The notes beneath the pieces were generated by a model. It was not told the DNA's origin. It saw nothing but the letters and a program-made list of their open reading frames with translations, and ran no database searches. A DNA stretch of 64,000 nt from Pedobacter aquatilis. Lineage in GTDB: Bacteria > Bacteroidota > Bacteroidia > Sphingobacteriales > Sphingobacteriaceae. Positions 1 to 48,407 of the stretch are shown here, one piece after another (the first letter of the stretch is position 1; each line of letters begins with the position of its first letter). Position numbers and translations under genes: made by a program. The DNA lies in contig NZ_JAUFPW010000036.1 of assembly GCF_030409415.1 (NCBI RefSeq), forward strand, positions 124,001 through 188,000, in the 5' to 3' direction.

Positions 1-2322
1 GCTTACCAGAGGCTGTTCTGGGCCTAAAACTCGTGGACCAAATTTTGCTTTAAGTGTTTGAGCGAGTGCAAGTGAAGCATTATCCAGAACATTTGAATCT
101 TTATGCTTAATGTAAAGAAAAATCATTCTTGAAAATGGTGGATATAGAAATTTTTCACGTTCCAAAATCTCATCATTATACATTCCATGATAATCATTCT
201 CAACCACCTGCTTAATGATTCGGTTATCAGCATCGTAAGTTTGAATACAAACATTTCCCTGTTCTGCTCGTCTACCTGCCCTACCTGCCACTTGTGCTAA
301 TAATTGATAGCTTCTTTCGTATGCTCTAAAATCAGGATAGCCAAGTAAAGTATCGGCATTTATTACGCCGATTAAACTCAAATTATCAAAATCTAACCCT
401 TTGGCAACCATTTGAGTACCAATTAAAATGTCAGTTTTTTTATCTTGAAAATCAGACAAGATTTGCTGCAGACCATTTTTAGTTCGTGTAGTATCCATAT
501 CCAAACGGGCAATGGTAATTTCCGGATACAATAAACGCAATTCTTCTTCGATGCGTTCTGTACCGAAACCTTTCTGCTCAACGTGGACAGAACCACAAGC
601 CGGGCAAATATTTACGCTACTTTGCTGATAGCCGCAATAATGACAATGTAATTTACCACTGCTTTTGTGATAGGTTAAACTTACATCACAATTCACACAC
701 TTCGGCGTGTAACCGCAGGTTGCGCAAATTAAAATTGTTGCGTATCCTCTTCTATTCTGGAAAAGTACAATTTGTTCCTTTTTACTCAGTGCCAAATCAA
801 TATCCTTAATAAGCACACTCGAGAAGTAAGAAACCATTGTTTTTCGTTTAGTTTCTTCAGAAATACTTACAACTTGCTGATTTGGAAGTTTAACGCCACC
901 AAAACGCTCATGCATCTCTACCAAGCCATATTTTCCATTCAAAGCATTATAATAACTTTCTAAAGATGGCGTAGCGGAACCTAAAACAACCTTTGCTTTA
1001 TGCAAATGCGATAAATATATTGCAGAATCTCGTGCCTGATAGCGAGGTGCGGGGTCGTATTGTTTGTAGGATGGCTCATGTTCTTCATCAATCACAATTA
1101 GCTTTAAATCTTGAAATGGTAAAAATACAGCCGACCTTGCACCCAAAACAACTTTAAAAGCGTTTTGCTTAACCTTGTTCCAAATTTCTACTCTTTCGCT
1201 ATTATTAAATTTTGAGTGATAAACACCAATTGAATTGCCAAAATATTTCTTAATACGCTCAACAATTTGCGTAGTTAGAGCAATTTCAGGTAAAAGGAAA
1301 AGAACCTGACCATCACTATTATTAATAATATTTTCTATTAATTTGATATAAACTTGTGTTTTCCCCGATGCAGTTACACCATGTAATAGCACAACATCTT
1401 TCTCAAGAAAGGATTCGTTAATTTTACTTAACGCATTTTGCTGACTATCATTCAAATTGAAGTTGATGCTGAAATCATCGTCATTAGCACTCAATCTACT
1501 TACAGGTCTTTTTAAAACAGTAAAAACTTCTTTATCAGTTAATGCCTTTAAAGCGCCGGCTCCACAATTACTTTCCTCTAAAAGGTCTTCTTTAGAAATT
1601 GGTAAACCAGCTTTGTTTAATTTTAAGTAGCCCAATAATGCATCTAATTGTTTCGGCGCTCTTTCTAATAGCGCAAAAAGTTGCTTTAAATTCTCTTCAT
1701 CATTATAAAAATCGTTAAGAATTATAAATGATTTTAACAATGGTTTATATTTTTGAATAACTTCTTCGGCAACAAGAATAAGTTCTTTTGCTAATAGCTG
1801 ATTAATTATTGGGTAAATACTTTTCTGTCCGAGAAGTTTAGATACATCGTTAACTGTTAATCGTTGTTGCTTTTTTAAAGTGGAGATTATAATTTCTTCC
1901 TTTTCTGTAACTGAAGTAGTTTCATCATAATCATCCCGAAGTATTAATATTGTTTCACTTGCTAATTTTAAACTTGCCGGCAAAGCGGCAGCCATTACAT
2001 CACCTTCATTACACATGTAATAATCAGTCATCCACTGCCAAAACTTTAGCTGTAATGGTGTCACCACAGGTTCTGCATCTATAATATCAATTATATATTT
2101 TGCTTCATAAACCGTTGGCGGAATGGTCGTAATGTTACTAATTAAGGCTGTATAAATTTTATGCTTACCAAACTGCACTACTACTCTTTTACCAATCTCA
2201 ACTTGGCTATTTAAATCAAAAGGAATGCGGTAAGTGTAGTTTTTTGCCAAAGATAAAGGCAAGATTACCTCTACAAAAAGCGTTTCTCTTTCTGCAAAAA
2301 TATCAGGTTCGAAAGCAATCAT
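1..2322 (-). CDS. priA: Primosomal protein N' (replication restart helicase PriA), C-terminus cut by window edge
   Basis: Encodes the 3'-to-5' superfamily 2 helicase that reloads the replisome at stalled forks. 774 codons are visible and the reading frame is still open at base 1, so the last few dozen residues lie outside. The Walker A motif GVTASGKTQ is near residue 312, the DEEH box near residue 410, and the paired-cysteine zinc-binding insert (CATCGY, CVNC, CHYCG, CPACG) spans about residues 529-577. The helicase motif QVAGRAGR follows. The ATG at 2322 shares one base with the stop codon of the DUF423 gene (TAATG), so the two genes are translationally coupled. The family call is secure. 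Confidence 0.96.
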   Translation of the reverse strand, partial: MIAFEPDIFAERETLFVEVILPLSLAKNYTYRIPFDLNSQVEIGKRVVVQFGKHKIYTALISNITTIPPTVYEAKYIIDIIDAEPVVTPLQLKFWQWMTDYYMCNEGDVMAAALPASLKLASETILILRDDYDETTSVTEKEEIIISTLKKQQRLTVNDVSKLLGQKSIYPIINQLLAKELILVAEEVIQKYKPLLKSFIILNDFYNDEENLKQLFALLERAPKQLDALLGYLKLNKAGLPISKEDLLEESNCGAGALKALTDKEVFTVLKRPVSRLSANDDDFSINFNLNDSQQNALSKINESFLEKDVVLLHGVTASGKTQVYIKLIENIINNSDGQVLFLLPEIALTTQIVERIKKYFGNSIGVYHSKFNNSERVEIWNKVKQNAFKVVLGARSAVFLPFQDLKLIVIDEEHEPSYKQYDPAPRYQARDSAIYLSHLHKAKVVLGSATPSLESYYNALNGKYGLVEMHERFGGVKLPNQQVVSISEETKRKTMVSYFSSVLIKDIDLALSKKEQIVLFQNRRGYATILICATCGYTPKCVNCDVSLTYHKSSGKLHCHYCGYQQSSVNICPACGSVHVEQKGFGTERIEEELRLLYPEITIARLDMDTTRTKNGLQQILSDFQDKKTDILIGTQMVAKGLDFDNLSLIGVINADTLLGYPDFRAYERSYQLLAQVAGRAGRRAEQGNVCIQTYDADNRIIKQVVENDYHGMYNDEILEREKFLYPPFSRMIFLYIKHKDSNVLDNASLALAQTLKAKFGPRVLGPEQPLVS

Positions 2323-19073: not shown

Positions 19074-19928
19074 TTAAACAAGCAATGCATTTAATGTCCT
19101 GGTTTTTACTTTTGGAACGGCACCATGTCTAATAAATTCTGAAAATCCTTTTAGCTGCTTGATTGATTTTATAGTTTCGTAACCGAAATAATTACTTCTA
19201 ATTTTATTTAGCAAAAGTGTATCGGTTTTAAATAAATCTTTTTCAGTTAAAATGCCTTTCTTTAAAAAAAACTTAATAAGCTCTGCCATTTTTCCATTCG
19301 CAAATAAATAAAGCGGAAGGTTAAAAACTTCATCATTAAGTCTTTTAAATATTTGATTTATCCACAAAACTTCATCTTCAGAGTTTATTGCAATTTTACC
19401 GTCCTTTAATTCAATTGATTTTAAAAATGTTAAAATTCTTTGTCGGGAAATCAATCCAGCGTAGAAACTATCCCTTAAAGTATAATCTAATCTATCTGCA
19501 CAAAGTGATGGTAATGGCTGTTCTAAAATATTAAACTCACCATAAATAATCTGATTAGCATTGTAGCCATACTTAAGTAAAACGTCAGGAATTTCTGAAT
19601 TATAGAGAATTTCAGCAAAAACCTTTTCGTGATAATCTTCATCAGTGTTGTCAAAAACATAATCGCCAACATGAGAAAATGCAGTATGAGAAATATCATG
19701 TAAAAGCCCCGCAATTTGCTCCAATTCCGAACCACCTAACTTTCTAATTAACATCATTACCCCGATTGCATGCTCCAGCCTAGAATGACAAATATCTGGG
19801 TTAACCAAATAGATAGCCCCACTTTGATGTACACCTGCCAATCGTTTTAAAGCTTCGGTATTCAATAAATTATCAAAAATTTCTGGTAAATCTATCTTAC
19901 CATACAAAAAATCGTTTACCTGAATCAT
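19074..19928 (-). CDS. HD-domain phosphohydrolase (dNTPase/SAMHD1-like superfamily)
   Basis: A 284-residue cytoplasmic protein. The metal-binding HD residues are visible in HSRLEHAIGV (about residues 48-57), LLHDISHTAFSHVGD (about 76-90) and ADRLDYTLRD (about 140-149). This pattern is that of COG1078-type HD phosphohydrolases, related to dNTP triphosphohydrolases; substrate is not known. Probably a single-gene unit. Confidence 0.88.
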   Translation of the reverse strand: MIQVNDFLYGKIDLPEIFDNLLNTEALKRLAGVHQSGAIYLVNPDICHSRLEHAIGVMMLIRKLGGSELEQIAGLLHDISHTAFSHVGDYVFDNTDEDYHEKVFAEILYNSEIPDVLLKYGYNANQIIYGEFNILEQPLPSLCADRLDYTLRDSFYAGLISRQRILTFLKSIELKDGKIAINSEDEVLWINQIFKRLNDEVFNLPLYLFANGKMAELIKFFLKKGILTEKDLFKTDTLLLNKIRSNYFGYETIKSIKQLKGFSEFIRHGAVPKVKTRTLNALLV

Positions 19929-20000: not shown

Positions 20001-20045
20001 AACTAAATATTTTAGTTAAATATTAACTTTCAAAATATTTGAAAG
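20001..20045. promoter_or_regulatory. Two tandem palindromes upstream of the TetR-type gene (candidate operators)
   Basis: AACTAAATATTTTAGTT (20001-20017) has 7-base arms around TAT. CTTTCAAAATATTTGAAAG (20027-20045) has 8-base arms around ATA. They lie 87-131 bases before the TetR-type gene at 20132, and their centres are 27 bases apart. TetR proteins often bind such sites near their own gene, but the distance is rather long, so binding is inference. Confidence 0.45.
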
Positions 20046-20131: not shown

Positions 20132-20791
20132 ATGGCAACTGCTGAGCAAATCCGAAAAGCATATTTAGATTACGTTTTAAGCAACAACGAAAAACCAAAA
20201 TCGGTTTACATTTTTGCAAAAAAGTTAAAAATAACAGAAGCTGATTTTTATCAGTTTTATTCTTCTTTTGAAAGTATTGAGAAGAATATTTGGTTTGAAT
20301 TAACTTTTGAAACCATTAGTAAGATTAAGGAACAGGAAGTTTGGCATCAATACTCTTCAAGAGAGAAAATGCTGTCATTTTTCTACAGTTATGTTGAAAA
20401 ATTAAAGAATGAGAGAAGCTTTATAATCTACAGTTTAAAAAATTATGGGATACAGCTAGGAACACCTAACGTTTTAGCTGGTGTTAGACCAATTTTTGAG
20501 AATTTCGCCGAAGATATTATAAATGAAGGATTAGAAAACGGAGAGCTAGCTGAACGTAAATTCTTCAGCAAACGCTATAAAGATGCCCTATGGGTTCAGT
20601 TTGCGTTTATTTTAAATTTTTGGATTAATGATGATAGCGAAAGTTTTGAAAAAACAGATGAAGCAATTGAAAAAGGCATTAATGTAACTTTCGATCTTTT
20701 TCAGCACTCTCCTATTGATAATTTATTTGAGTATGGAAAGTTTTTGAGTAGAAATGGGAAGTTTAAAGAGCGTATGGGTTTTAATATTTAA
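20132..20791 (+). CDS. TetR-family transcriptional regulator
   Basis: A 219-residue protein. Residues 1-50 form a TetR-like helix-turn-helix (QIRKAYLDYVLSNN...VYIFAKKLKITEADFYQFYSSFESIEKNIW), and the rest is an all-helical ligand-binding domain. The stop codon is immediately followed by the ATG of an AarF/UbiB kinase gene (no gap), so the two are coupled; this pairing recurs in Bacteroidota as far as I know. It may regulate that kinase and act on the palindromes upstream. Confidence 0.85.
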   Translation: MATAEQIRKAYLDYVLSNNEKPKSVYIFAKKLKITEADFYQFYSSFESIEKNIWFELTFETISKIKEQEVWHQYSSREKMLSFFYSYVEKLKNERSFIIYSLKNYGIQLGTPNVLAGVRPIFENFAEDIINEGLENGELAERKFFSKRYKDALWVQFAFILNFWINDDSESFEKTDEAIEKGINVTFDLFQHSPIDNLFEYGKFLSRNGKFKERMGFNI

Positions 20792-22093
20792 ATGAAAGAG
20801 CAAAAGAGTATTCCGGTAACTAAGGTAGAGCGTTCTGCAAAATTTGTTAAAACAGGTTTTCAAATTGGTGGAAATTACATTAAACATTATTCAAAAAAGC
20901 TTTTTAATCCAGAAATGGATAGAGATGAGCTTAATGAAGATAATGCTACAGATATCTATAAATCGTTAAGCGAACTGAAAGGGAGCGCTTTAAAGATTGC
21001 GCAAATGCTAAGTATGGATAAAAACATACTGCCAAAATCTTATGTAGATAAATTCACGCAATCTCAATATAATGCTCCACCACTTTCTGGGCCGCTTATT
21101 GTTAGAACATTCACTAAAAATTTCGGGAAAACACCAGAAAAAATTTACGATAGTTTTAATTTAACTTCTACAAATGCGGCTTCTATAGGCCAAGTTCATC
21201 AGGCTAAATTAAACGGAAAAAAACTTGCTGTTAAAATTCAATATCCTGGTGTTGGCGATAGCATTTCATCAGATTTAAAATTGGTTAAGCCTTTTGCCTT
21301 CAGGCTTTTAGGAATGTCGGAAAAAGAGCTAAACATCTATATAAAAGAGGTTGAAGAGCGTTTATTGGAAGAAACCGACTATGAATTAGAAGTTAAACGT
21401 TCTATTGAATTTTCTGAAGCTTGCAGAAACTTAGATAATGTTATATTTCCAAAATATTACCCAGAATTATCTGGAAAACGAATCATTTCTATGGATTGGA
21501 TTGATGGTTTGCACTTAAAAGAGTTTTTGAAAACCAATCCATCTCAAGAATTAAAAAATAAAATCGGTCAGGCTTTATGGGATTTCTATAATTTCCAACA
21601 ACATGAACTAAAAGCTGTTCATGCAGATCCGCATCCAGGAAACTTTCTTATTACATCTGATGAAAAACTTGGTGTAATTGACTTTGGATGCATTAAGGAA
21701 ATGCCACTGGATTTTTATATTCCTTTTTTCTCGCTTATCTCAACAGATGTGATTCTCGATAAAGCTAAAACAATAGATGCTTTTAGAAAGTTGGATATGA
21801 TTCATGCTGAGGATACAGAAGCACAAATTGAGTTTTACTATAAATCGTATAAGGAAATGATTGAGCTTTTTGCTAAACCATACATCAATACAGTGTTTGA
21901 TTTTAGCCAAAATGATTTTTTTGAAAAACTATACAATTATGGCGAGAAGATTTCGAAAATGCCGGAATTTAAGCAAGCTCGCGGCGTAAAACATTTCATT
22001 TATGTTAATCGCACAAATTTTGGTTTGTACACAATATTACATGAATTAAAAGCAACGGTTAATACAAATACATACCAACCAAAGCTTTACTAA
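20792..22093 (+). CDS. AarF/ABC1/UbiB family atypical kinase
   Basis: A 433-residue ABC1-family protein. Motifs: AASIGQVHQAKL (nucleotide-binding A-rich loop region), AVKIQYPGV with the lysine, EEVEERLLEETDYELE, VHADPHPGNFLI and VIDFGC (metal-binding). The family's KxGQ motif reads KIAQ here, with alanine for glycine. Members act in quinone biosynthesis or lipid handling, probably by ATPase activity. No C-terminal membrane anchor is seen. It overlaps the convergent receiver gene by 4 bases. Confidence 0.9.
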   Translation: MKEQKSIPVTKVERSAKFVKTGFQIGGNYIKHYSKKLFNPEMDRDELNEDNATDIYKSLSELKGSALKIAQMLSMDKNILPKSYVDKFTQSQYNAPPLSGPLIVRTFTKNFGKTPEKIYDSFNLTSTNAASIGQVHQAKLNGKKLAVKIQYPGVGDSISSDLKLVKPFAFRLLGMSEKELNIYIKEVEERLLEETDYELEVKRSIEFSEACRNLDNVIFPKYYPELSGKRIISMDWIDGLHLKEFLKTNPSQELKNKIGQALWDFYNFQQHELKAVHADPHPGNFLITSDEKLGVIDFGCIKEMPLDFYIPFFSLISTDVILDKAKTIDAFRKLDMIHAEDTEAQIEFYYKSYKEMIELFAKPYINTVFDFSQNDFFEKLYNYGEKISKMPEFKQARGVKHFIYVNRTNFGLYTILHELKATVNTNTYQPKLY

Positions 22094-44870: not shown

Positions 44871-45368
44871 TTAACTCCAATTTTTTAGACTAAAGTTTTT
44901 CATAATTGTTGCTGTGATTTGGATTTCAAGGCTAAAATCATGCTCAAAGTTTGAATCAAATACTTTAAAGTTCATTATATCATTTTGCTGCATTATATTC
45001 TTAACAAATATGTTAAAAAGCCTTCTAAAAGCATTGAAGTCTACATCAGGCAGACAAATCACCATGATTTCAGCTTCCGAAACCACAACAATATCCTTAA
45101 CATATTCACTACCTCTGGCCAAGATTTGTGAAGGTAATCTATAAAAGGCTTGCTGACTAATGAATTTACCAATATCCTGTATATATGACTGCTTTAAGGG
45201 CGATAGTACAGAACCTGTCCAGGTGTCTTTAACAAATTCCAATTCTCCAATAATTTCATCATCTTTCAAAATCATATAAGGCTTATTGTTTTCCTGCTGA
45301 ACAATCAGATAGCTTTGATAACCTAATTCCTCGTTGGCATCAGCATGTAAATACATTAGTTGAATCAT
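44871..45368 (-). CDS. Unknown protein (165 aa), last gene of the SOS/translesion operon
   Basis: I do not recognise this 165-residue protein. It is soluble with mixed alpha/beta content: a beta-rich start (YLIVQQENNKPYMILKDDEIIGELEF), a middle helical part (LKQSYIQDIGKFISQQAFYRLP), then VVSEAEIMVICLPDVDFNAFRRLFNIFVKNIM. Its ATG overlaps the alkB stop by 4 bases (ATGA), so it is translated from the same mRNA as umuD-umuC-SRAP-alkB. A DNA-repair or checkpoint role is suggested only by this context. Confidence 0.7.
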   Translation of the reverse strand: MIQLMYLHADANEELGYQSYLIVQQENNKPYMILKDDEIIGELEFVKDTWTGSVLSPLKQSYIQDIGKFISQQAFYRLPSQILARGSEYVKDIVVVSEAEIMVICLPDVDFNAFRRLFNIFVKNIMQQNDIMNFKVFDSNFEHDFSLEIQITATIMKNFSLKNWS

Positions 45369-45988
45369 ACATTTAATGGATGAATAATACGTCTAAAAGT
45401 AAGGTTAACCCTGGGCTGCATAAAACTTTTGGATTTGGCAATCCGATGATCCCAATTCTGCTGCAAATCCCCTTTCATTATCAGAAGCGAACCATGTTCT
45501 AACCTTACACCATATTTTACCGAATGATTTGCTTTCAGGCGGATGTCGAAGGTTCTGACCTGACCAAAAGAAAGTGAAGCGATGATTGGATGTGAACCCA
45601 TTACAGTTTCATTATCACTATGCCAGGCTACGGAATCCTGCCCATCTCTGTAATAATTAAGCAAAACACTATTGAAAGCCATACCAGCAATCGGTTCAAC
45701 TTTTCTCTTTAGGGTTAACAATAGCGGTGTCCATTCAAAAGGTTTAGATTTACCTATAGCGGTATAATCAACCTGGGTAGCATCACCATAAAAAGCCGAT
45801 AAGCGGGGCGTTATCACTTCCTTATCATAATAACGGACCACCTTTTGTTTCCAGGGTGTAATTGCAATCAACTCTTGTAATATTGCATCACTTTTTACAG
45901 CATCAATGAAACCGCCGTGATATTCCAATACATCACTTGGCAGACCAACACTCTGACCAGATAAGGCAAAAAAACTCAGCTGTTCCAA
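45365..45988 (-). CDS. alkB: AlkB-like alpha-ketoglutarate-dependent DNA dealkylase
   Basis: AlkB enzymes repair N1-methyladenine and N3-methylcytosine by oxidative demethylation. The 207-residue protein has the iron ligands H123 and D125 in AWHSDNE and H181 in WDHR, plus the alpha-ketoglutarate-binding arginines in QPRVNLTFRRI. NSVLLNYYRDGQDSVAWHSD is typical of the AlkB group found near SOS genes. It follows the SRAP gene by 4 bases in the same operon. Confidence 0.93.
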   Translation of the reverse strand: MEQLSFFALSGQSVGLPSDVLEYHGGFIDAVKSDAILQELIAITPWKQKVVRYYDKEVITPRLSAFYGDATQVDYTAIGKSKPFEWTPLLLTLKRKVEPIAGMAFNSVLLNYYRDGQDSVAWHSDNETVMGSHPIIASLSFGQVRTFDIRLKANHSVKYGVRLEHGSLLIMKGDLQQNWDHRIAKSKSFMQPRVNLTFRRIIHPLNV

Positions 45989-45992
45989 AATA

Positions 45993-46673
45993 TTAATTAA
46001 ATAAGGTTAAGTCAGGTCCGGATGGTTTGTTATTATCATCATCCTTATTCCGGGCATTATTTAATTTCGCATCCACTTGCCAGCCTTTCAAAATATAATT
46101 ATCTACCGGATGCAATACCTTTAAACGCTCCGATGCAGGTAATTCCCGGTCAAGCCAAATGGCACTCTCGGCTTCTGAAAGCAAACAAGGCATACGATTG
46201 TGGATTTTTGACATATAGCTATTGGCTGGTTGCATAATCATGGTACAAGATGGAATTACGATGCCTGTTTTAGGATCTTTCCAACTGTCCCAAAAACCCG
46301 CAAGCAACATAATCCGCTTATCCATTCTTTCGAAAAAATAAGGTTGTTTATCCTTACTGTTCCTATCCCACTCGTAAAAACCCTCAACAACAAAAACACA
46401 GTGACGTTTACCCACCAGGCTTTTATAAGTTGGTAAACTTTGCATGGTTTCTATCCTGCAATAAGTGGTAGAGAATTTGGGAATTTCTCTTGAATTTGAC
46501 GGAATTAGGCCCCACTTTATATAATGTAATTTACCTGGCCTTGCATCCAATATAATGGGCATATCAGTACCCGGCGGACGATTTGTATCTTTCTCTTTTG
46601 CTTCGCCTCCCAGTATAACGCCGGCCTTTGCAGCCATCGCCTTACTTTCTCCAATTAATGTTCTGCCACACAT
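45993..46673 (-). CDS. SRAP (SOS response-associated peptidase, YedK/HMCES-like)
   Basis: SRAP proteins form a thiazolidine link through Cys2 with abasic sites in single-stranded DNA, protecting forks. The 226-residue protein starts MCGRTLIG, giving the needed Cys2. VEGFYEWDRN carries the catalytic glutamate and SKIHNRMPCLL the histidine. It sits 28 bases after umuC, inside the translesion operon. Confidence 0.94.
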   Translation of the reverse strand: MCGRTLIGESKAMAAKAGVILGGEAKEKDTNRPPGTDMPIILDARPGKLHYIKWGLIPSNSREIPKFSTTYCRIETMQSLPTYKSLVGKRHCVFVVEGFYEWDRNSKDKQPYFFERMDKRIMLLAGFWDSWKDPKTGIVIPSCTMIMQPANSYMSKIHNRMPCLLSEAESAIWLDRELPASERLKVLHPVDNYILKGWQVDAKLNNARNKDDDNNKPSGPDLTLFN

Positions 46674-46701: not shown

Positions 46702-47946
46702 CTATTTCACCTTGATAATATCTGCCCAACGGGTTGTGTAACCTTTGGATAAATACTCATGTTTTAAACGCCACTTTTTTTCATACCCCTCTGTTGCCAT
46801 TCGAATCGTTCCACGTCCATAGGCAAGGTTTAGCTTATCTAATGTTTCAGAAACCTTATCTTTCTTTCCGCCATCATGATTACTAAATATGTTAAGCTGC
46901 AATTCTGATTCGGGTACTAATCCTGTGGCAATAACACCTGCCTTACGGTACTTAACGCCATATTTGAACAATTTCTCTGAAACCGTTACAGCAATTTTCA
47001 CCAAATCTGACGTGTTGTTACTTGCAATTAAAAGCTTATGGGTATGTGTAGGAAAATGTTGCGGATGGTCTTCACGATTTTTATTGGTATATAAGAAAAC
47101 CTGCAAATATAAACAGCGTAAGTTTTCTGCCCTAAGTTTTTCAGCAAGTCTGGAAGCATATAGCGTAACGGCTTCGGCAAGTATACCAGGGTCTTCAATG
47201 TAATTGCGAAAGGAACGACTCACTGTAATACCTTTTTTAGTTTCCCTAACTGCATCAATCGGAATGGACGATCTGCCCCATAACTCATTCCACATCCTTT
47301 GCCCCATAATCGTCATGTTTTGCTTAAACCACATTTCAGGCATTTCCCGTAATTGCCCAACTGTCTCTATTTTTAGTTCCTCAAACTTTTTATAATATTG
47401 CCTCCCAACACCCCATAAATCATGCACCGGAAATTTGGCTATGGCTTCTGTTATCTTTTCATCTGTATCTAAAACCATCACGCCGCCGTTTTTCTTGGCA
47501 AGCTTATTAGCCAGTTTAGCCAGTGTTTTGCTTGGCGCAACACCAATGGAAACCGGAATGCCTGAATTTTGAACCACAGACTGTCTGATCTTTGGTATAT
47601 AATTAACCAAATCTTTAACACCACCCAGCCAGCCAAAGGCTTCATCTATACTGTAAACATCCAAACGTGGAAACCACCGACTTAAGTTATGCATAACCCT
47701 CTCGCTCATATCTCCATACAGCACATAATTACTGGAAAACACCTGTATGTTGAATTTTTTAATCAGGTCGCGTACCAAAAATTCAGGGTCGCCCATTTTT
47801 ATGCCACAAGCCTTTGCTTCTTCACTTCGAGCAATTACACAACCATCATTATTGCTCAACACTACAATTGGCAAATCATTCAATTCGGGCCGGAAAAGCC
47901 TTTCGGCTGATGCATAAAAGTTATTACAATCACAAAGCGCAAACAT
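46702..47946 (-). CDS. umuC: Y-family DNA polymerase V catalytic subunit
   Basis: UmuC copies past DNA lesions. The 414-residue length is normal. The palm opens with MFALCDCNNFYASAERLFRP (first metal aspartate) and carries LDVYSIDEAFGWL with the catalytic SIDE. The little-finger domain includes GKTLAKLANKLAKK and the C-terminal region LNIFSNHD (possible clamp-binding motif). It overlaps umuD by 17 bases. Confidence 0.95.
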   Translation of the reverse strand: MFALCDCNNFYASAERLFRPELNDLPIVVLSNNDGCVIARSEEAKACGIKMGDPEFLVRDLIKKFNIQVFSSNYVLYGDMSERVMHNLSRWFPRLDVYSIDEAFGWLGGVKDLVNYIPKIRQSVVQNSGIPVSIGVAPSKTLAKLANKLAKKNGGVMVLDTDEKITEAIAKFPVHDLWGVGRQYYKKFEELKIETVGQLREMPEMWFKQNMTIMGQRMWNELWGRSSIPIDAVRETKKGITVSRSFRNYIEDPGILAEAVTLYASRLAEKLRAENLRCLYLQVFLYTNKNREDHPQHFPTHTHKLLIASNNTSDLVKIAVTVSEKLFKYGVKYRKAGVIATGLVPESELQLNIFSNHDGGKKDKVSETLDKLNLAYGRGTIRMATEGYEKKWRLKHEYLSKGYTTRWADIIKVK

Positions 47947-48358
47947 CCCGATACCTCCCTTGCTTTAATGCGCTAGGCAAAACACCTCTACATACAGCAG
48001 TTATTACTCCCCAAATCAGTGCATCATTTTCTGGAAATGTTTTCAAAACATCCAACCCATTTTGTAAGCCAATGATACCCTGATTATCTATGTAAATTCG
48101 ACAGGTATAAGCACCTGATATAAATGCCACAACCATTGCCCCGTGTACAGCATGAAGTGATTTATCAACGATAAGCAAGTCACCATCTTGCAGACCATAT
48201 GCATTCATGGCATCACCCTCCATTTTAAAGTAAAAGGTTACATGCGGATCTACCACCAATTTTTCGACAATGTCCAAGCGGCCTTCTAAATAATCAGCCG
48301 CCGGGGATTGAAACCCCGAAATCTTTTGCTCTGCTCTTTTCTCAAACGACCTAATCAT
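47930..48358 (-). CDS. umuD: UmuD-like S24 protein with both catalytic residues replaced
   Basis: UmuD forms the accessory dimer of polymerase V after self-cleavage. This 142-residue homologue keeps the family body: SGFQSPAADYLEGRLD (cleavage region) and LQDGDLLIVDK. The nucleophile motif GDSM reads GDAM (A50, codon GCC), and the catalytic lysine of FTVK is R87 in YTCR. The N-terminal arm before the SG cleavage-like site is about 14 residues, shorter than in E. coli (about 24). It therefore should not self-cleave; it may mimic cleaved UmuD'. First gene of the operon; a palindrome sits at its promoter. Confidence 0.9.
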   Translation of the reverse strand: MIRSFEKRAEQKISGFQSPAADYLEGRLDIVEKLVVDPHVTFYFKMEGDAMNAYGLQDGDLLIVDKSLHAVHGAMVVAFISGAYTCRIYIDNQGIIGLQNGLDVLKTFPENDALIWGVITAVCRGVLPSALKQGRYRDVCAL

Positions 48359-48381: not shown

Positions 48382-48407
48382 CAAAAATATACTAAATATT
48401 TTAGTAT
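48382..48407 (-). promoter_or_regulatory. Promoter box and palindromic candidate operator of the umuD operon
   Basis: On the minus strand TATTTTTG (48389-48382) fits TAnnTTTG. Just upstream, ATACTAAATATTTTAGTAT (48389-48407) is a perfect palindrome: 8-base arms around TAT. It fills the -33/-7 spacer, a classic repressor position. The 15-base core ACTAAATATTTTAGT also occurs at 20002-20016. The regulator is not known. Confidence 0.5.

Follow-up and report, generated by a model that had tools for sequence, protein, structure and literature searches.

The umuD gene studied here probably encodes a cleavage-independent Pol V-type subunit, in which self-cutting has been lost for good and replaced; from comparison of sequences, we give this reading a probability of about 0.6. 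Textbooks present the self-cleavage of UmuD as the post-translational brake on SOS mutagenesis. In Pedobacter, a soil bacterium, and in most UmuD-bearing members of its family that were sampled, something else seems to have taken the place of this safety switch, which has been studied in depth. The window is the whole stretch of Pedobacter aquatilis DNA that was analysed (64,000 nucleotides), in which the gene and its relevant positions are the following:

47930..48358, minus strand: umuD homologue of 142 aa, dyad-less (Pfam PF00717, E=8.6e-13; best PDB match UmuD/UmuD')
48209..48211, minus strand: Ala50 codon GCC, at the position of the nucleophile Ser60 (alignment to E. coli UmuD)
48098..48100, minus strand: Arg87 codon CGA, at the position of Lys97 (alignment to E. 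coli UmuD)
48317..48358, minus strand: uncut N-terminal arm MIRSFEKRAEQKIS, 14 codons before Gly15, which corresponds to E. coli Gly25 (alignment, clade conservation)

Alignment to E. coli UmuD showed GDSM replaced by GDAM and FTVK by YTCR, in agreement with the first-pass annotation of this DNA, which had both catalytic residues gone: the Ser60-Lys97 dyad is absent, with Ala50 and Arg87 at its two positions. The Ala/Cys-Gly scissile bond is also absent, and Ser14-Gly15 is found instead. The fold is otherwise kept, as had been claimed, since UmuD' was the best match both in sequence (PDB entries 8gmt/1umu, E about 1e-17) and in fold, and PF00717 likewise recognized the S24 peptidase domain. 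An AlphaFold model built with eight close relatives (pLDDT 42) was discarded; a second, from a 33-row alignment, had a pLDDT of about 85 over residues 41-123 and a disordered arm, and was used for the globular domain only, which matched 1ay9 with a VIA Z of 13.7. The NCBIfam UmuD model NF007621 gave 90.2 bits, below its cut-off of 110. The domain search found S24 as the sole domain, preceded by 14 residues, and no N-terminal DNA-binding domain. The window protein probably works like UmuD and descends from it, and "dyad-less UmuD" is its best name, since it has neither the dyad nor the scissile site of an autoproteolytic subunit.

An in-frame TAA four codons before the umuD ATG rules out a longer arm, and the distance from SOS box to ATG, which is the same in the window gene and its relatives, supports this start. 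The arm is therefore shortened, as first suggested: it has 14 residues, whereas E. coli UmuD has 24 and most intact UmuDs of Bacteroidota have about 25-35. An internal start producing UmuD' directly was rejected, as no start codon was present near Gly15 and the first internal TTG is codon 28. The gene overlaps umuC by 17 bp and directly precedes it in all seven named relatives (close relatives named being P. jeongneungensis, P. kyungheensis, P. terrae and P. miscanthi). Relatives at 57-70% identity have the Arg and the loss of Ser in common, and the clade's closest orthologue pairs have a dN/dS of about 0.1; on these grounds sequencing error, chance and a pseudogene were rejected. Within the window clade position 50 varies freely (A, S, D, E, T, M, G), so that no nucleophile is conserved there, and Cys86-Arg87 is invariant (19/19).

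How often catalytic loss occurs in Bacteroidota umuD genes next to umuC, a check proposed at the outset, was addressed by a census of UmuDs from genomes of the genus Pedobacter, its family Sphingobacteriaceae and a spread of Bacteroidota (n = 206, mostly Bacteroidota). Both residues were lost in 114 UmuDs and 85 had Ser and Lys; in six, Ser was kept and the Lys was replaced by Arg or Cys, and one was truncated. Because the window's family and high-scoring matches were over-represented in the sampling, these counts are not prevalence estimates. The combination of a non-Ser residue with a kept Lys was found in 0/206. Among 92 family genomes read, 66 had only dead (dyad-less) UmuDs, 11 only a Cys form described below and 10 only intact UmuDs; dyad loss is thus present in most of the UmuD-carrying family relatives sampled.

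The cut site has changed along with the dyad. In 169 non-redundant sequences, the P1 residue before the scissile Gly was Ala or Cys in 62/62 intact UmuDs and Ser, Leu or Thr in 85/103 dead ones, P1 Ala among the dead being confined to 13 Cys variants and one singleton; the P1' Gly was kept in 97/103. The arm Pro at -9 and the hydrophobics at -8 and -10, positions near the docking residues L17/F18 of E. coli UmuD, occurred in nearly all intact UmuDs but only patchily among the dead. Nucleophile, base and cut site have therefore been lost together, which is the pattern that loss of self-cleavage should leave. With the nucleophile, base, P1 residue and hydrophobic/Pro arm motif all lost from the window protein, the earlier expectation that it does not cleave itself holds. 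Plasmid and phage tblastn matches were all <60% identical, and the seven that were read keep the dyad in the alignment; viral carriage was rejected, with no relative of P0001 in viral_contigs.

Trees were built on UmuC, leaving UmuD residues unused, first with 138 rows and then with a wider set. The dead label required four changes on the former and five on the latter (4-5 in bootstrap), at least three of them forced by supported branches; of these five, the Cys clade, whose members may still cleave, accounts for one and a single long branch for another. As read from these trees, dead UmuDs arose 3-5 times. The Sphingobacteriaceae dead clade, which contains the window UmuD, is single (support 100/99) and, in the genomes sampled, family-wide, and two other families have dead clades of their own (support 100/100 each).

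In the window clade the arm is the most conserved part of UmuD, which makes it look functional rather than left over. In intact UmuDs the arm is less conserved than the body (27% vs 54% identity), a relation that holds for every one of the 945 comparable pairs and suits a piece that is to be discarded, whereas in the window clade it is reversed (81% vs 56%). Eight species agree at thirteen of its 14 residues, and in close pairs pN over the first 30 codons is 0.00-0.03 against a pS of 0.16-0.74, values indicating that the arm is under strong purifying selection. Synonymous codons vary in the arm region, codons 1-16 somewhat less than the others; DNA-level constraint was therefore rejected as the cause, and the constraint is placed at the protein level. 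A start of the form M-hydrophobic-R was seen in 66/88 dead UmuDs, 1/60 intact ones and 0/13 Cys forms, and the arm of dead UmuDs was mostly 14 or 23 residues long. The argument from the arm is limited to Sphingobacteriaceae, because the two other dead lineages have different arms that lack this start. The proposal that the protein is made already in a UmuD'-like form was thus partly right: no cleavage is expected, but UmuD' is devoid of the arm before Gly25 that is here most conserved.

In a separate Sphingobacteriaceae clade the nucleophile is replaced by Cys (GDCM) and the Lys by Arg or Ala (loci L029, L030, L033, L037, L078, L084, L087, L117, L127, L155, L160, L162 and L164). The Ala-Gly cut site and a Pro-Leu arm motif are mostly kept in this clade, and its arm is less conserved than its body (39% vs 57% identity), as in intact UmuDs; its members are possibly thiol-type self-cleaving proteins. 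The UmuDs of family f24 are all dyad-less (Ala/Arg, in some cases with Cys in place of the Lys), with arms mostly of 27 residues and no M-hydrophobic-R start (loci L109, L110, L171, L173, L176, L180, L182, L183, L301, L310 and L318).

Downstream of umuD the window contains the polymerase gene and a cassette of further genes:

46702..47946, minus strand: umuC, Y-family polymerase with D6/D101/E102 and a QLNIF clamp-type motif (domain search, alignment)
46804..46845, minus strand: RecA-NT-like motif TLDKLNLAYGRGTI in UmuC (local alignment to own RecA N-terminus)
45993..46673, minus strand: SRAP (SOS response-associated peptidase) gene (PF02586, E=3.7e-47)
45365..45988, minus strand: AlkB-like 2OG-Fe(II) oxygenase gene (PF13532, E=2.1e-28; kept in L191 and L192)
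44871..45368, minus strand: 165-aa ORF, last gene of the cassette (without Pfam match; present in L191 and L192 at 34-40% identity)

The 17-bp overlap and the retention of D6, D101 and E102 by the window UmuC substantiate the earlier view that the operon is intact, and these three residues were kept in all 87 UmuC partners of dead UmuDs examined. The UmuC motif TLDKLNLAYGRGTI aligned to the N-terminus of the genome's own RecA, TLDKLEKSYGKGTI, with a score of 53, the best of 1000 shuffles reaching 44. UmuC positions R90, R200, W223 and Glu348 hardly vary among the partners of Sphingobacteriaceae dead UmuDs, and the partners of intact UmuDs carry other residues there; these positions are candidates for touching the uncut arm, or may simply reflect the history of the clade. 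SRAP follows umuC in six of the seven named Pedobacter relatives, and the whole cassette (SRAP, AlkB-like gene and 165-aa ORF) is kept in two of the seven; identity of the 165-aa ORF is no more than 34-40% in relatives where that of SRAP is 89%.

The umuD promoter has two SOS boxes, one of them a perfect TACTAA-N5-TTAGTA:

48390..48406, no strand assigned: SOS box TACTAAATATTTTAGTA (CTAA-N5-TTAG), about 32-48 bp upstream of the umuD ATG (motif from PMC8565304)
48419..48435, no strand assigned: second SOS box, CTAAATTTATTAG core (same motif match)

The CTAA-N5-TTAG motif and the HTH-S24 repressor that goes with it have been published, as has the use of the motif in Sphingobacteriaceae (PMC8565304). 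Of 94 dead umuD genes, 81 have such a box in front, where mononucleotide shuffling predicts 0.6; elsewhere in the genome, the S24 repressor gene has two and recA has one. SOS transcriptional control of the window umuD-umuC pair, as judged from these motifs, is well supported. The first-pass statement that control would rest on transcription alone is therefore borne out as to SOS control, but "alone" is too strong: UmuC keeps the motif matching its own RecA N-terminus, so RecA-dependent activation may persist. The sequence CTAAATATTTTAG at 20003-20015 of the window is identical to the umuD SOS core (about two expected by chance in the window) and lies between an HD-like phosphohydrolase ORF (19074-19928, minus strand) and a TetR-like/ABC1-kinase-like pair (20132-22093, plus strand), names given from reading; it is a possible SOS target.

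PF00717 matched four genes in the genome, namely the window umuD, a second dead umuD and two S24 repressor genes, one of them decayed. The second umuD (L002:1423-1881(+), G000:C28) lies beside a second umuC and has DDDQM and TRK, hence Gln/Arg at the dyad, a 23-residue arm and an SOS box; this pair, by its residues, is not a backup copy. A second functional UmuD elsewhere, which would have made another protein the true partner, was rejected, as PF00717 found none in the genome and the sole other UmuD is also dead. The intact HTH-S24 repressor (L004:1378-2154(-), G000:C28) keeps Ser-Lys and an Ala-Gly site; two SOS boxes lie in the promoter of its own gene, and it is likely the SOS master repressor. 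The decayed HTH-S24 repressor gene has in-frame stops (L003, about 1318-1820(+), G000:C21).

From the loss of dyad and scissile site, the active-site-complete UmuC, the SOS boxes and the selection on the arm, we infer that cleavage is absent, that the arm is inserted in UmuC and that the uncut complex is active. The HTH-S24 SOS repressor ("non-canonical LexA") would block umuD-umuC until DNA damage, and once it is cleaved UmuD and UmuC would be made together. UmuD would undergo no self-processing, and its native N-terminus (Met-Ile/Leu-Arg and a basic arm leading into the GF-SPA segment) would stay untrimmed. The arm would most likely lie permanently in the UmuC cleft, where the freed UmuD' end sits in E. 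coli, by the UmuC active site in published Pol V models (PMC11791011). UmuD2C would thus be assembly-competent as made, and what post-translational control remains may lie in the binding of RecA to UmuC. We hold at even odds the broader proposition of a Pol V without UmuD switch, in which a regulator that once cleaved itself has turned into a fixed subunit of the polymerase, across the whole family and, in separate events, in at least two further lineages, with the Sphingobacteriaceae arm (M-hydrophobic-R) uncut and permanent in the UmuC active-site cleft and mutagenesis control left to the SOS repressor and RecA.

Data from E. coli show that an uncut UmuD need not be active, since uncuttable UmuD (S60A, K97A) blocks Pol V mutagenesis and leaves UmuC at the membrane (PMC4552617; PMC5342242). 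Arm length also matters there: UmuD 18, with a 7-residue arm, is an uncuttable partial UmuD' mimic, and UmuD 8, with 17 residues, has its arm docked and is non-mutagenic when uncuttable (PMC5342242). The window arm of 14 residues is longer than the former and close to the latter, which counts against our preferred explanation. The dead UmuDs might accordingly be held permanently in the uncut mode: they would act on UmuC (or on the replicase and DinB) as a non-mutagenic checkpoint or polymerase manager, and no active Pol V would ever form. The conserved arm of the window clade, the manager roles of uncut E. coli UmuD and the membrane-bound UmuC of the K97A mutant lend weight to this alternative. 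We consider it unlikely, as a purely inhibitory complex in an old clade would not need the UmuC catalytic residues that all the partners examined retain, and as the arm-docking features and P1 residue are lost in dead UmuDs.

It is quite unlikely that the arm is removed in trans, by the S24 SOS repressor or a Clp/Lon-type protease, and that UmuD' is still made. UmuD S60A of E. coli is indeed cleaved in trans by an active partner (PMC5342242), an intact S24 repressor is encoded in the genome and the P1' Gly is largely retained; against this, P1 has drifted to Ser, Thr or Leu, the arm is under the strongest selection, the opposite of intact UmuDs, and the genome has no intact UmuD partner. Residual or altered self-cleavage through Arg87 and water or another side chain would fit the invariance of Cys86 and Arg87 in the clade, but is highly improbable given the freely varying position 50 and the unconserved scissile site. 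That umuD is dispensable and drifting, as its lost catalytic residues might suggest, is next to impossible, being already refuted by the dN/dS of about 0.1 and by the retention of the gene beside umuC under an SOS box in species after species. The cleavage-independent subunit is thus the reading that we prefer.

We found no description of natural dyad-less UmuD clades in the open-licence literature searched, a scope that makes this weak evidence; the available parts of PMC8565304 (Bacteroidota SOS), PMC6511836 and PMC12926913 (polymerase diversity) do not mention UmuD dyad loss. Families with only uncuttable UmuDs and an active-site-complete UmuC are a natural experiment, which makes testable the purpose of cleavage, the role of the UmuD arm in the mutasome and the control of mutation rate without the brake.

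Compared with E. coli UmuD/UmuD', the window protein has the same fold at about 30% identity, a GF-SPAADY segment and a place in an SOS-controlled operon with umuC; it differs in lacking the Ser-Lys dyad, in having Ser-Gly and not Cys-Gly at the scissile position, and in the shortness and high conservation of its arm. UmuDAb of Acinetobacter and the Bacteroidota HTH-S24 SOS repressors, of which this genome has its own, have the S24 fold and damage response in common with it but carry a DNA-binding domain and an intact dyad, neither of which it has. The N-terminal arm of PPB2, a protein of PolB2 mutasomes, is uncut and conserved; it reads MGRT, its third residue being Arg, and is predicted to insert by the polymerase active site (PMC11791011); its likeness to the M-hydrophobic-R start of dead UmuDs is an analogy only, PPB2 being a trimeric accessory protein of a B-family polymerase and not a UmuD. 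The nearest precedent is HumD of phage P1, a natural UmuD relative that escapes cleavage and is annotated as complementing UmuD' (the window UmuD scores 49 bits against a cut-off of 120 for NCBIfam HumD NF051876). HumD starts at the cut site (MGF...) and has no arm, whereas the window UmuD has a conserved arm before that site.
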